From assembly GCF_036231965.1 (NCBI RefSeq), contig NZ_CP109499.1, forward strand, positions 6,882,001 through 6,946,000: a stretch of 64,000 bases of DNA, written 5' to 3'. Numbering within the stretch: position 1 is the first letter of the stretch; every line of letters starts with the position of its first letter. The DNA comes from Streptomyces sp. NBC_01428. Lineage in GTDB: Bacteria > Actinomycetota > Actinomycetes > Streptomycetales > Streptomycetaceae. Made by a program: the position numbers and the translations under genes. Of this stretch, positions 2,315 to 55,529 are shown piece after piece. The notes under the pieces are model-generated. The model saw nothing but the letters and a program-made list of their open reading frames with translations, did no database searches and had not been told where the DNA came from.

Positions 2315-5300
2315 GTGGCCGACCGTCTCATCGTCCGTGGAGCGCGCGAGCACAACCTGAAGAATGTCTCGCTCGACCTCCCGCGCGACTCGCTCATCGT
2401 CTTCACGGGCCTGTCGGGGTCGGGCAAGTCCTCCCTCGCCTTCGACACGATCTTCGCCGAGGGCCAGCGGCGCTACGTGGAGTCCCTCTCCTCGTACGCA
2501 CGGCAGTTCCTCGGCCAGATGGACAAGCCGGACGTGGACTTCATCGAAGGCCTCTCCCCGGCGGTCTCCATCGACCAGAAGTCGACCTCGCGCAACCCGC
2601 GCTCGACGGTCGGCACCATCACCGAGGTCTACGACTACCTGCGGCTTCTCTTCGCCCGCATCGGGAAGCCGCACTGCCCCGAGTGCGGCCGCCCCATCTC
2701 CCGGCAGTCCCCGCAGGCCATCGTCGACAAGGTGCTGGAGCTGCCCGAGGGCAGCCGTTTCCAGGTGCTGTCGCCGCTGGTCCGCGAGCGCAAGGGCGAG
2801 TTCGTCGACCTCTTCGCCGACCTCCAGACCAAGGGATACAGCCGTGCCCGGGTCGACGGCGAGACCATCCAGCTGACCGAGCCGCCCACGCTGAAGAAGC
2901 AGGAGAAGCACACCATCGAGGTGGTCATCGACCGCCTCACGGTGAAGGACTCCGCCAAGCGCCGGCTCACCGACTCCGTGGAGACCGCGCTCGGCCTGGC
3001 CGGCGGCATGGTCGTGCTCGACTTCGTCGACCTCCCCGAGGACGACCCCGAGCGCGAGCGCATGTACTCGGAGCACCTGTACTGCCCGTACGACGACCTG
3101 TCCTTCGAGGAGCTGGAGCCCCGCTCCTTCTCCTTCAACTCGCCCTTCGGCGCGTGCCCGGACTGCAGCGGCATCGGCACACGCATGGAGGTCGACCCCG
3201 AGCTGATCGTCCCGGACGAGGAGAAGTCCCTCGACGAGGGCGCCATCCACGCATGGTCGCACGGGCACACCAAGGACTACTTCGGCCGGCTGATCGGGGC
3301 CCTCGCCGACGCGCTGGGATTCCGCACCGACATCCCCTTCGCCGGCCTGCCGCAGCGCGCCAAGAAGGCCCTGCTCTACGGCCACAAGACACAGATCGAG
3401 GTCCGCTACCGCAACCGGTACGGCCGCGAGCGGGTCTACACCACGCCCTTCGAAGGGGCCGTCCCCTTCGTCAAGCGGCGCCACAGCGAGTCCGAGAGCG
3501 ACGCCAGCCGTGAGCGCTTCGAGGGCTACATGCGCGAGGTGCCCTGCCCCACCTGTCACGGCACGCGCCTGAAGCCGCTCGTCCTCGCGGTGACGGTCAT
3601 GGAGAAGTCCATCGCCGAGGTCTCCGCCATGTCGATCAGCGACTGCGCGGACTTCCTGGGCCGGATGAAGCTCAACGCCCGTGACAAGAAGATCGCCGAG
3701 CGCGTCCTGAAGGAGGTCAACGAACGGCTGCGCTTCCTGGTCGACGTCGGCCTCGACTACCTGTCGCTGAACCGAGCGGCCGGCACCCTGTCCGGCGGCG
3801 AGGCCCAGCGCATCCGGCTGGCCACCCAGATCGGCTCCGGACTCGTCGGCGTGCTCTACGTCCTCGACGAGCCGTCCATCGGCCTGCACCAGCGCGACAA
3901 CCACCGGCTGATCGAGACCCTCGTCCGCCTCCGGGACATGGGCAACACGCTCATCGTCGTCGAGCACGACGAGGACACCATCAAGGTCGCCGACTGGGTC
4001 GTCGACATCGGCCCCGGCGCCGGTGAACACGGCGGCAAGGTCGTCCACAGCGGTCCCTTGAAGGAACTGCTCGCCAACTCCGAGTCGATCACCGGGCAGT
4101 ACCTGTCGCGGAAGCGGGAGATCCCCACCCCGGACGTGCGCCGCCCCACCGACCCGAGCCGCAGGCTCACGGTGCACGGCGCCCGGGAGAACAACCTCCG
4201 GGACATCGACGTGTCGTTCCCGCTGGGCGTCCTCACGGCCGTCACCGGCGTGTCCGGCTCCGGCAAGTCGACCCTGGTCAACGACATCCTGTACACGCAC
4301 CTGGCCCGCGAGCTGAACGGCGCGAGGAACGTGCCGGGCCGCCACACGCGCGTGGCGGGCGACGACCTCGTCGACAAGGTCGTGCACGTCGACCAGTCGC
4401 CGATCGGCCGCACCCCGCGCTCGAACCCGGCGACGTACACCGGAGTCTTCGACCACGTCCGCAGGCTGTTCGCCGAGACCACCGAGGCGAAGGTGCGGGG
4501 CTATCTGCCCGGCCGCTTCTCCTTCAACGTCAAGGGCGGCCGCTGCGAGAACTGCTCGGGCGACGGCACTATCAAGATCGAGATGAACTTCCTGCCGGAC
4601 GTGTACGTCCCCTGCGAGGTCTGCCACGGGGCGCGCTACAACCGGGAGACCCTGGAGGTCCACTACAAGGGCAAGTCCATCTCCGAGGTCCTCGACATGC
4701 CGATCGAGGAAGGGCTCGCCTTCTTCGAGGCGGTCCCGGCGATCGCCCGCCACCTGAGGACGCTGAACGACGTCGGCCTCGGGTACGTCCGGCTCGGTCA
4801 GTCCGCGCCGACCCTGTCCGGCGGTGAGGCCCAGCGCGTCAAGCTCGCCAGCGAGCTCCAGAAGCGTTCCACCGGCCGCACCGTGTACGTGCTCGACGAG
4901 CCGACCACCGGTCTGCACTTCGAGGACATCAGCAAGCTCATCACGGTGCTGTCCGGCCTGGTCGACAAGGGCAACACGGTCATCGTGATCGAGCACAACC
5001 TGGACGTCATCAAGACGGCGGACTGGGTCGTCGACATGGGCCCCGAGGGTGGCAACGGCGGTGGACTGGTGGTCGCCGAGGGCACTCCCGAGGAGGTCGC
5101 CGGCGTTCCGGCCAGCCACACCGGCAAGTTCCTGCGCGAGGTCCTCGGCGCCGACCGGATCAGCGACGCCGCTCCGGTGAAGGCGCCCCGCAAGGCGGCC
5201 GCCAAGAGGGCGGTCGCGGCCAAGGCGCCCGCCAAGAAGACGGCCACGAAGACCGTCACCGGCGCGGCCACCAAGGCCGCCGCCAAGAAGACCGCCGCGC

Positions 5301-26820: not shown

Positions 26821-27941
26821 TCGGCGGCCGCCTTCTTCGCCGGAGCCTTCTTGGCGGTGGACTTCTTCGCCGCGGAGCCCGACGTCGCCTTCTTGGCCGC
26901 GGACGACGAGGCGGTCTTCTTCGCCGCCGGGGCCGCCGTGGACTTCTTGGCGGCCGGAGCCGTCTTCGTGGCCGTCGCCGTCCCGCCCGAGGAGGCCTCC
27001 TCGGCGGCCGCGGCCTCCGCGTTCAGCCGGTCCACGCCGTAGCGCAGCGCCGAGGCGTAGGTGTCGTCCGGGTCGAGGCGGCGCAGTTCCTCCGCCATCA
27101 GCTCGGCCGTCTCGCGGCGCTTGAGCGCCACCGCACGGTCGGGCTGGCCCTCGATGGAGAGGGTGGCGAGGGAGCCGTCGGCCCGGTCCAGGACGATCGG
27201 GCCGCAGCTCGTGTCCATCCGCACCGCGGTGAGACCCGGGCCGGCCGACAGCGAGCGCTTGACGGGGACGTCGAGCCGGTCCGCGAGCCACATCGCCAGC
27301 AGCTCGCAGCTCGGGTTGAACTCCTCGCCCTCCACCTCGACCGCGGACACGTCGCACACGACCTGGTCCAGGGCCGCGGCCAGCATCGAACGCCAGGGCG
27401 TGATGCGGGTCCACGACAGGTCGGTGTCGCCGGGGGCGTAGGCGTCGGCGCGGGCGTTGAGCTCCCGGACCGGCGACTCCGCGGCGTAGGTGTCGGTCAC
27501 GCGGCGCTGCGCGAGCGCGCCGAGCGGGTCCTTCGCCGGATCGAGCGGCGCGTTCACCGGCCACCAGGCGACGACGGGAGCGTCCGGCAGCAGCAGCGGC
27601 AGCACGACCGACTGGGCGTGGTTGAGGACCTCGCCGTACAGACGCAGCACCACCGTCTCGCCGGTGCCGGCCTCCGCTCCGAGCCGTACCTCGGCGTCGA
27701 GGCGCGACTTCGTGCGGTCGCGGGGCGAACGGGAGACGCGCTTGATGACCACGAGGATGCGCGAAGGGTGCTCGCGCGAGGCGTCGTTGGCGGCCCTCAG
27801 GGCGTCGTAGGCGTTCTCCTCGTCGGTGACGATGACGAGGGTGAGCACCATGCCGACGGCAGGGGCGCCGATTTCGCGGCGGCCCTGCACCAGCGCCTTG
27901 TTGATCTTGCTGGCCGTGGTGTCCGTGAGATCGATCTTCAT
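26817..27941 (-). CDS. opcA: Glucose-6-phosphate dehydrogenase assembly protein OpcA
   Basis: 374 residues. OpcA activates or assembles glucose-6-phosphate dehydrogenase in cyanobacteria and actinobacteria. Family features include MKIDLTDTTASKINKALVQG at the start, GMVLTLVIVTDEENAYDALR, and VLPLLLPDAPVVAWWPVNAP. The last about 50 residues are a Lys/Ala tail (AAKKATSGSAAKKSTAKKAP) not needed by the family core and similar in style to the UvrA tail in this window. ATG at 27941 overlaps the zwf stop (ATGA), and its own stop overlaps pgl, so zwf-opcA-pgl are translationally coupled. Confidence 0.96.
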   Translation of the reverse strand: MKIDLTDTTASKINKALVQGRREIGAPAVGMVLTLVIVTDEENAYDALRAANDASREHPSRILVVIKRVSRSPRDRTKSRLDAEVRLGAEAGTGETVVLRLYGEVLNHAQSVVLPLLLPDAPVVAWWPVNAPLDPAKDPLGALAQRRVTDTYAAESPVRELNARADAYAPGDTDLSWTRITPWRSMLAAALDQVVCDVSAVEVEGEEFNPSCELLAMWLADRLDVPVKRSLSAGPGLTAVRMDTSCGPIVLDRADGSLATLSIEGQPDRAVALKRRETAELMAEELRRLDPDDTYASALRYGVDRLNAEAAAAEEASSGGTATATKTAPAAKKSTAAPAAKKTASSSAAKKATSGSAAKKSTAKKAPAKKAAAE

Positions 27942-54104: not shown

Positions 54105-54890
54105 TTAATTCTTCTACGAGGTATCGGCAATGAACGCTAACCAGTGGGGAGGGTGACGCGGGTGAGGTGTCGGGGCCGTTCGGCCGCACGGCGCTGTCGT
54201 TCGCGTCCGGCGCGCGGCCGGTCGACGAGGGACCGCGGGACCCGGTGGCCGAGGCTCCGTCGTCGCCACGGCCGACCTCGGCGTGTCCGGGCCGGCCGCG
54301 AAGACCCCTCCGTTGCGGGCCCGACTCACCTGATTCCAGGGCCGGTTGGCGCGACTCGAAGATCGGGTTTCGCAGGGGTAACGCCGCCCGCCTCGGGTAC
54401 CCGAGCCTCCGCGAGCGAGAGGAGGCGGGACGACCGTGGCCAGGACCCTGGACCGGAACACCGTGCCGAACAGGCGCGGACGGCCGTCCGTGGACGCACC
54501 CGCGGGCCGTGCCGCTCATGTCCTCCACTCGCCGGTACGACGGGAAGTGGGCCCCGCCGGGCACAGGTCGGCGGAGCACCCCCGACGTGCCGGGCGCGGC
54601 GGCGGGCCGCTCGGCGCCGCGGACGGCGATGGCTCGACCGAGCCGTCGACCGGGTCCGTGGCGGAAGCCGCCGCGCCCTCGCCGGCACCACCCGGGCGCA
54701 CGCCACCGTCCCCCGTACCGACAAGGGCGACGCCCGCGTGCGCGCGTGCCGTGCTCGCGGGGGAGAGGCCGACATGGGCGCGGGCGCGGGCGCGGGCGGT
54801 TGACGTCCCGACGATCGCCGCCGGTGCGCCCCGCGTCGCTGCACGGCGGTGTCAGGACACCGACGACCGGTTCGAGGAAAGGGCACACCG
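54105..54890. other. 0.8-kb region without a convincing gene
   Basis: Between the dapA-like gene and the DUF3618 gene. Every frame is open for long stretches because of the extreme GC content, but none gives a recognisable domain, codon pattern or good start. Several Arg/Pro/Ala-rich translations overlap each other on both strands. No tRNA could be built. It may hold regulatory RNA, a decayed gene or merely unconstrained DNA. Confidence 0.5.
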
Positions 54891-55529
54891 ATGACGGAGA
54901 ACGACGGGAAGGGCCCGGTCACGGGCCCGGACGCCGCGGGGGCCCCGGACAGGGGGACGGCCGACGGTACGGGAAGGTCCGCCGACCCGGCCGGCGCGGT
55001 CGGCCGGGCCGGCGCCACGGGTGCCGACAACCCGGAGGAACTGCGGCGTCAGATCGAACGGACCAGGAGCAGGCTCGACGCCGAGGCGAAGGCGCCGCAG
55101 GAGGCCGGGCAGGCCGGGCAGGCCGGGGAGGACGTCACGTCCGGCGCCCGTACCCGCGCCGCCGACCCCAAGGAGCAGGCCGACACGGTCACGGTCCGCA
55201 TGAAGGACACGGCGACCCAGGCGGGCCAGGCCGCGCAGGACGGCGCGGTGGAGGCCGGACGCGCGGCGCAGGACAAGGCGGTCCGGGCGGGGCATGTCGT
55301 CCACGACACGGCGGCCCGGGCCGGTCAGGTGGCCCAGGAGAAGGCCGCCGAGACGGGCCGCGTCCTCCGGGACAACGTTCCGGAGTCGCTGCGCACCGCG
55401 GCCACTTCGGTCGTCGAAGCCGGGCGTCGCACCCCCCGCCCGGCGCTCTTCGCGAGCGCGGGCGCCGGTGCGGTGCTCGCCGTGAGCCTGCTCCGCAGGC
55501 GGCCCAACGGTCGTCGAGGACGCCGTTGA
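54891..55529 (+). CDS. DUF3618 protein with LEA-like 11-residue repeats and C-terminal anchor
   Basis: 212 residues. DUF3618 start: DNPEELRRQIERTRSRLDAE at about 44-63. Residues 111-165 are five tandem 11-residue units (AGQAAQDGAVE, AGRAAQDKAVR, AGHVVHDTAAR, AGQVAQEKAAE, TGRVLRDNVPE), an amphipathic helix pattern like group 3 LEA proteins and apolipoproteins. A hydrophobic segment (ALFASAGAGAVLAVSLL) and basic tail (RRRPNGRRGRR) end it, suggesting membrane attachment. GAGGAAAGGG precedes the ATG at 54891. DUF3618 proteins often sit near membrane-stress or phage-holin-like genes; YihY is the next gene, on the opposite strand. Confidence 0.85.
   Translation: MTENDGKGPVTGPDAAGAPDRGTADGTGRSADPAGAVGRAGATGADNPEELRRQIERTRSRLDAEAKAPQEAGQAGQAGEDVTSGARTRAADPKEQADTVTVRMKDTATQAGQAAQDGAVEAGRAAQDKAVRAGHVVHDTAARAGQVAQEKAAETGRVLRDNVPESLRTAATSVVEAGRRTPRPALFASAGAGAVLAVSLLRRRPNGRRGRR

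Follow-up and report, generated by a model that had tools for sequence, protein, structure and literature searches.

The window analysed here is a stretch of 64 kb from Streptomyces sp. NBC_01428 (contig NZ_CP109499.1, positions 6,882,001 to 6,946,000). It contains a gene for a repeat protein related to the DUF3618 family, preceded by the remnant of a Holin-X gene and by a candidate promoter. The open reading frame begins with the ATG at 54891, ends with the stop codon TGA at 55527-55529 and encodes 212 amino acids. The features of the locus are as follows.

54376..54400, plus strand: SigB-type promoter-like site GGGTAA-N13-GGGTAC (GGGTAACGCCGCCCGCCTCGGGTAC), the sole match to the pattern on this strand
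54457..54624, plus strand: N-terminal remnant of a former Holin-X (PF07332-type) gene that has lost its membrane part; HMM positions 7-62 of 140, 26.4 bits
54891..55529, plus strand: gene for a 212-residue repeat protein with a predicted membrane anchor, a DUF3618 relative, from the ORF translation
55026..55082, plus strand: surviving first part of the DUF3618 domain, residues 46-64; PF12277 positions 2-20 of 47, 19.2 bits
55167..55373, plus strand: predicted continuous helix, residues 93-161 (69 residues); AlphaFold2 with two sequences, those of the window and of strain M41
55221..55385, plus strand: five tandem 11-residue units, residues 111-165, from lag-11 identity and alignment with relatives
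55443..55493, plus strand: putative membrane segment, residues 185-201 (ALFASAGAGAVLAVSLL); Kyte-Doolittle mean 2.05 over 17 residues
55494..55526, plus strand: basic C-terminal tail RRRPNGRRGRR, from the translation

Residues 111-165 consist of the units AGQAAQDGAVE, AGRAAQDKAVR, AGHVVHDTAAR, AGQVAQEKAAE and TGRVLRDNVPE, which are in register. Their identity at a lag of 11 residues is 0.477, compared to 0.119 in shuffled sequences (z 7.9), and none of 2000 shuffles reached the observed value at any lag from 2 to 24. The look-elsewhere scan comprised 55-residue segments, taken in steps of 5 from the stop-to-stop ORFs of 100 codons or more on the two strands of the 64 kb. Among these 14,474 segments, residues 111-165 have the largest lag-11 excess (0.333; next best elsewhere, 0.214). 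The chain of 11-residue helical repeats in the focal protein is real. The earlier note had described five exact 11-residue units; their length is exact and they are in register, but their sequences differ from one another. A literature search, which had subscription journals and preprints largely outside its reach, gave no report of such an array in DUF3618 proteins.

The closest relative of the focal protein is found in Streptomyces sp. M41 (89% identity in the best segment). Among 150 genomes of the genus, 55 contain a match to the focal protein at E <=1e-4. When an alignment of 21 sequences served as the query, 89 of 147 genomes of the order matched at E <=1e-8, all of them in the window's own genus, which is one of the five genera sampled; these genome counts overstate the number of orthologues because paralogues are included, the window genome's own copy at 742 kb among them. 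For the comparisons below, 55 loci were reduced to 50 distinct proteins (rows), almost all of them from the genus Streptomyces. Because L014 and L089 represent the same gene with alternative starts, the 50 rows correspond to 49 genes, with the window and M41 included. L001, L002, L028, L029 and L032 were excluded as being paralogue-like or having a different unit, L013, L027 and L034 had no start assigned, and L004 and L005 never entered the set. The gene adjoins dapA in 19 of the 50 rows and an ArsR-type gene in 13, and one or the other in 27, as counted for most rows in flanks of about 1.5 kb. The other 23 rows have neither neighbour, and orthology therefore rests on the sequence, the holin and the promoter.

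Of the rows, 46 were testable for periodicity. The lag-11 z value is at least 5 in 43 of them, and the strongest lag is 11 or 22 in 45; weak lag-11 values were obtained for L088 (1.9), L033 (3.4) and L086 (4.6). Conservation of the repeats among orthologues, on which the earlier note had made its proposal depend, is thus seen for the period, while the copy number varies between 1 and 10 units in the 50 rows. The longest array, with 10 units by pattern, is that of L014/L089 (genome G087). A typical unit of the relatives reads AGHxVQDRAxx, and the consensus of 219 units from 48 proteins is AGHAVQDRATR. Histidine occupies unit position 3 in 86% of these units, and there are about 1.3 His per unit compared to 0.4 in the window; these unit frequencies are biased because the search pattern fixes the allowed letters at positions 1, 2, 3, 6 and 7. 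Arrays such as those of L011 and L012 frequently contain HAGH, which gives rows of His along the helix, and have further His residues in the tail. A response of these His rows to metal or pH is conceivable. The excluded locus L029 (G093) encodes a DUF3618 protein with the same type of holin and promoter, in which the unit VKGKAIEGAAQ is repeated several times. Because this unit looks unrelated but has the same length, it seems that unit length rather than the individual letters is kept.

AlphaFold2 predicted helices at residues 48-72, 93-161, 165-180 and 186-201, with a mean pLDDT of 65 and a pTM of 0.27. The array is the best-modelled part, with pLDDT blocks of 83-90 over residues 101-150 and values of about 71-90 across residues 93-161. 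Structure prediction, which had been proposed as a check, thus places a continuous helix of 69 residues over the array. Group 3 LEA proteins lack order in water, turn helical when dried and are protective in that state, and an AlphaFold helix cannot separate a folded from a conditionally folded array. In the helical wheel, likewise proposed as a check, unit positions 1, 5, 9 and 2 (A, V, A and G) share one arc, but the hydrophobic moment at 98.2 degrees is within the range of column permutation both for the focal array (P 0.146) and for 214 units from 47 other rows (P 0.198). The amphipathicity of the focal helix is no greater than the make-up of its columns gives. The LEA consensus itself does no better under column permutation (P 0.42). 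When periods between 80 and 140 degrees were scanned, 12 of 27 proteins had their hydrophobic maximum close to 131 degrees, which is the other harmonic of 11.

These properties of the array also bear on another explanation, a hendecad coiled-coil stalk. Here, an Ala-rich parallel or antiparallel bundle would space the DUF3618 heads from the membrane or scaffold several copies; it would be off the lipid and not protective as such. The period of 11 residues with small residues (A, G) at unit positions 1, 2 and 9 argues for such a bundle, as do the straight continuous helix of the model and a period that stays constant while the copy number varies. Moreover, Ala-rich hendecad cores are described for the dimeric Streptomyces proteins FilP and Scy in the excerpt of PMC9858780. 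However, 13 of the 50 rows have one or two units, which is short for a stalk. Foldseek with the monomer model gave no PDB match, and the sequence search of solved structures returned one talin chain alone, which is a weak hit (E 0.59). We consider a stalk rather unlikely.

The putative membrane segment (Kyte-Doolittle 2.05) is directly followed by the basic tail, as had been read from the sequence before. With low confidence, the model puts a short helix at residues 186-201 on this segment. A hydrophobic segment reaches a Kyte-Doolittle value of 1.6 in 48 of the 50 rows, and its centre is located 13-25 residues from the C-terminus in the 50 rows. The very basic C-terminal tail fits a simple N-inside tail anchor badly, and an N-inside/C-outside topology is doubtful because this tail is basic.

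The match of the focal protein to DUF3618 scores 19.2 bits, compared to a Pfam cut-off of 24.9 (E 0.0015). A search of the whole genome for this family recovered one locus at 742 kb and another at 5.75 Mb, but not the focal locus. The relatives hold the full domain; for example, residues 27-70 of L007 correspond to positions 3-46 with 51.7 bits. All 21 aligned members, the focal one included, match DUF3618 at E <=1. The designation as a DUF3618 protein in the earlier note is therefore a weak detail: positions 2-20 of the 47 are matched and the relatives pass, but the focal score is below the cut-off and half of the domain is gone. Judged by its sequence, the focal protein is derived from the DUF3618 family and is not a full member of it.

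Of 118 genomes sampled from the class, 101 encode a DUF3618 member. Among 21 further DUF3618 proteins sampled elsewhere in the class, 11 show their strongest periodicity at lag 11, and the focal group thus exaggerates a tendency of the family; outside this group, members have much less regular units than the focal protein. Several DUF3618 proteins from the rest of the class (L037-L044, L063, L066) have a central hydrophobic segment resembling GNPLAAGLIAFG, which is followed by a second, 11-periodic tail. In L096 the strongest lag is 24, due to a Gly-rich repeat in the N-terminal linker before the DUF3618 domain.

According to the excerpt of PMC8346170, SigB-type promoters of Streptomyces have GNNT/GTTT at -35 and GGGTAN at -10, separated by 12-15 bases, and the less conserved -35 element (GNNT) belongs to promoters of the osmotic-stress factors SigB, SigL and SigM. 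The pattern GNNTN14-16GGGTAY has one match on the plus strand of the 64 kb, at 54376, and two on the minus strand. In its hexamers and their spacing, this candidate site agrees with the sequence criterion for the SigB-type regulon. In 45 of the 50 rows, a SigB-type site precedes the DUF3618 start by 430-560 bases, compared to 8 of 1165 control windows of 130 bases; the row counts are not independent because the rows are related. The rows lacking the site are L017, L033, L083, L090 and L096.

In the relatives, a Holin-X gene lies upstream, and its stop codon overlaps the DUF3618 start as ATGA. PF07332 was confirmed for the upstream gene of one relative, L030 (E 1.1e-37). A holin HMM, built from 35 rows and then scored on rows including those, finds a holin in 45 of the 50 rows, with intact rows near 220-250 bits; the rows lacking it are L017, L022, L033, L090 and L096. 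In the window and in M41, this HMM detects N-terminal remnants alone (26.4 and 18.4 bits). A stretch of the remnant frame matched no Pfam family, and no frame of the remnant region has a 17-residue window above a hydropathy of 0.65, compared to 2.68 in an intact relative. The window keeps the ATGA overlap (54891-54894) between the holin-frame stop and the start codon of the gene.

The same two families are found next to each other in Actinoplanes. There, forced expression of a SigB-family factor leads to strong induction of a neighbouring set of DUF3618, Holin-X, YihY and DUF4235 genes (table values of about 4.8-5.3), and a further DUF3618/Holin-X pair is induced as well (excerpt of PMC11205660). 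These genes, ACSP50_3380-3383 and 4921-4922, are known here by description and have DUF3618 and Holin-X adjacent, as in the operon of the relatives. According to the same excerpt, the factor did not induce five Actinoplanes homologues of genes known as SigH targets in Streptomyces, and regulons may therefore not carry over. At the sequence level, the promoter-like site and the operon order are conserved in the relatives, and we infer that the operon would be under SigB-family control in Streptomyces.

The operon suggests comparison with YqjD of E. coli, and one could assume that the focal protein is likewise a ribosome tether, i.e. a stationary-phase protein with a tail anchor by which resting ribosomes would be recruited to the membrane. 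The excerpt of PMC8778775 describes YqjD as a ribosome-binding protein that depends on RpoS and has a membrane helix at its C-terminus. In E. coli, yqjD is immediately followed by yqjE, whose product is a member of PF07332 (E 3.5e-21), as is that of the upstream gene of the relatives; by analogy, DUF3618 proteins appear to share the layout of YqjD. However, the gene order is reversed in the relatives, where Holin-X comes first. Moreover, hhalign against YqjD/ElaB/YgaM aligned 19 columns with a probability of 37, and homology to DUF883/YqjD is therefore not supported. Neither the focal protein nor the 21 members have DUF883 among their Pfam matches. What E. coli YqjD/ElaB/YgaM (DUF883) with YqjE may have in common with the system studied here is a small stress-phase protein with a C-terminal membrane helix and a neighbour of the Holin-X family; unlike the focal protein, the three E. 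coli sequences contain no 11-residue array that could be seen by eye. A role as ribosome tether is improbable.

The earlier note had further called the units close to the group 3 LEA consensus. The focal consensus AGQVAQDKAVE scores 26 against the group 3 motif TAQAAKEKAXE (P 0.004), whereas the consensus of the relatives scores 13 (P 0.17). In the excerpt of PMC10295645, the group 3 rule is given as Phi-Phi-Omega-X-Phi-Psi-Omega-Psi-Phi-X-Omega. With G and T taken as apolar, 73% of the positions of the focal array follow this rule (P 0.008, from permuting the 11 columns, which preserves the period). For the relatives the median is 64%, with P<0.05 in 9 of 36 rows that have at least three units; for M41, P is 0.11. 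LEA_4 (PF02987) is absent from the Pfam matches of the focal protein up to E 10 and is matched by 1 of the 21 aligned members (E 0.025), and membership of the LEA family by profile was therefore rejected. The likeness to LEA proteins, which protect plants during drying, is partial, and closeness to the LEA consensus is strong for the focal copy alone. The proposal of the earlier note, that a spore-forming actinomycete might use a membrane-tethered form of such helices, is supported in part.

Like group 3 LEA proteins, the focal protein has tandem 11-residue units; unlike these, it is linked to DUF3618 and Holin-X and has a predicted membrane anchor. The relatives differ from the group 3 motif by the His at unit position 3 (86%) and by a Gln in place of Lys at position 6. 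The array is also less hydrophilic than the LEA motif (GRAVY -0.56 vs -1.11). By analogy, the focal protein may nevertheless work like a LEA helix. DosH from Deinococcus radiodurans is a bacterial group 3 LEA protein with eight 11-residue motifs, and peptides of such motifs protect E. coli (excerpt of PMC10295645). It is likened to the focal protein by description, and that excerpt does not report DUF3618, Holin-X or a SigB-type promoter with it. In the literature searched, nothing on-topic joins LEA, Streptomyces, spore and desiccation. A separate candidate family, apolipoprotein (PF01442), is matched weakly by 19 of the 21 members (best E 3.6e-5); because the listed scores are far under the curated 90-bit cut-off, these matches were taken as shared helical make-up and the candidate was dropped.

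The losses at this locus raise the question whether the copy in this strain still has a function. It could be a decaying gene with little or no function, in which case the intact operon of the relatives would be the interesting system. The Holin-X gene of the window is reduced to a remnant, and the second half of DUF3618 is missing both here and in M41. The ORFs of the window and M41 differ at 26 of 621 aligned bases, distributed as 9, 10 and 7 over the three codon positions (dN 0.041, dS 0.049, dN/dS about 0.85). The divergence is similar in the holin remnant upstream, where 18 of 438 bases differ, and dapA has a dN of 0.017 and a dS of 0.037. In the other non-identical close pairs listed, the third codon position changes most. 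The ratio of first plus second to third position changes is 19:7 for window and M41 compared to 146:195 for nine other close pairs (p=0.0036), which were picked after seeing the list, with no sequence used twice. Because the excess at the third position is absent from the window/M41 pair, the constraint on the window copy looks relaxed.

On the other hand, the frame is open, and the GC content by codon position of 0.80/0.63/0.91 is typical of coding sequence. Indels between window and M41 measure 9 and 9 bases inside the ORF compared to 15, 5 and 1 upstream, and the SigB-type site is identical in both strains. Furthermore, the test is a small one, since it comprises 26 changes alone. A decaying gene with little or no function is a possibility that we take seriously but would not expect. 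The window copy looks weakly constrained or on its way out, with the promoter and the overlap remaining, and this genome offers an unfavourable copy for further work.

The neighbours of the gene in the window received the Pfam names DHDPS, BrkB (YihY) and winged-helix regulator, and a weak SRPBCC-type match was obtained. YihY was dropped as a conserved neighbour, being downstream in 4 of 22 stretches and in 7 of the 50 rows. A second SigB-type site, at 57012-56988 (minus strand), precedes the probable start codon of YihY (56947) by 41 bases; it is also present in M41 (as GGGTAT) and absent from the two other YihY loci tested. At 26857-26962, read on the minus strand, there is a tandem repeat of about 27 bases, one reading of which encodes a Lys/Ala-rich C-terminal tail of the kind known from histone-like proteins.

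Taken as a whole, the gene is best read as a derived copy of a Streptomyces Holin-X/DUF3618 stress module, whose product would be a stress-induced, membrane-anchored rod that steadies the membrane; we hold this reading tentatively, at somewhat less than an even chance. In this module, one SigB-type promoter, provided that the site is used, would drive the genes for a membrane protein of the Holin-X type and for a DUF3618 protein anchored in the membrane. The variable number of 11-residue units would build one long straight helix with three turns per unit, and the helix of 69 residues predicted here would be about 100 angstrom long and joined to the single hydrophobic segment near the C-terminus. 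With a SigB-type factor active under osmotic stress or during development, rods would accumulate at the membrane. We infer that the protein would be located there and helical in the cell, and that the rods would pack side by side or on the lipid via a stripe of small apolar residues, by which the membrane would be steadied and protected. The mode of action of such a rod would resemble that of a tethered LEA helix, although the protein would not belong to the LEA proteins. As this strain has lost the Holin-X partner along with the second half of DUF3618, and constraint looks relaxed, its copy may act alone, weakly, or be on its way out.

A bolder proposal, which we regard as speculative and unlikely to hold in full, is that Streptomyces possesses a stress-induced, membrane-tethered analogue of LEA proteins, in which a DUF3618 array, adjusted in length from species to species like a belt, together with Holin-X holds the membrane of hyphae or spores during water loss; the DUF3618/Holin-X pair would then be the counterpart of YqjD/YqjE in Actinobacteria. 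The genes for DUF3618 and chromosomal Holin-X proteins are common in Actinobacteria and have no known role; in the literature searched, DUF3618 was named in a sigma-factor study alone. If true, the proposal would provide the first function for both kinds of protein. The conserved stress promoter, the operon and the length-variable array make the question testable in Streptomyces.
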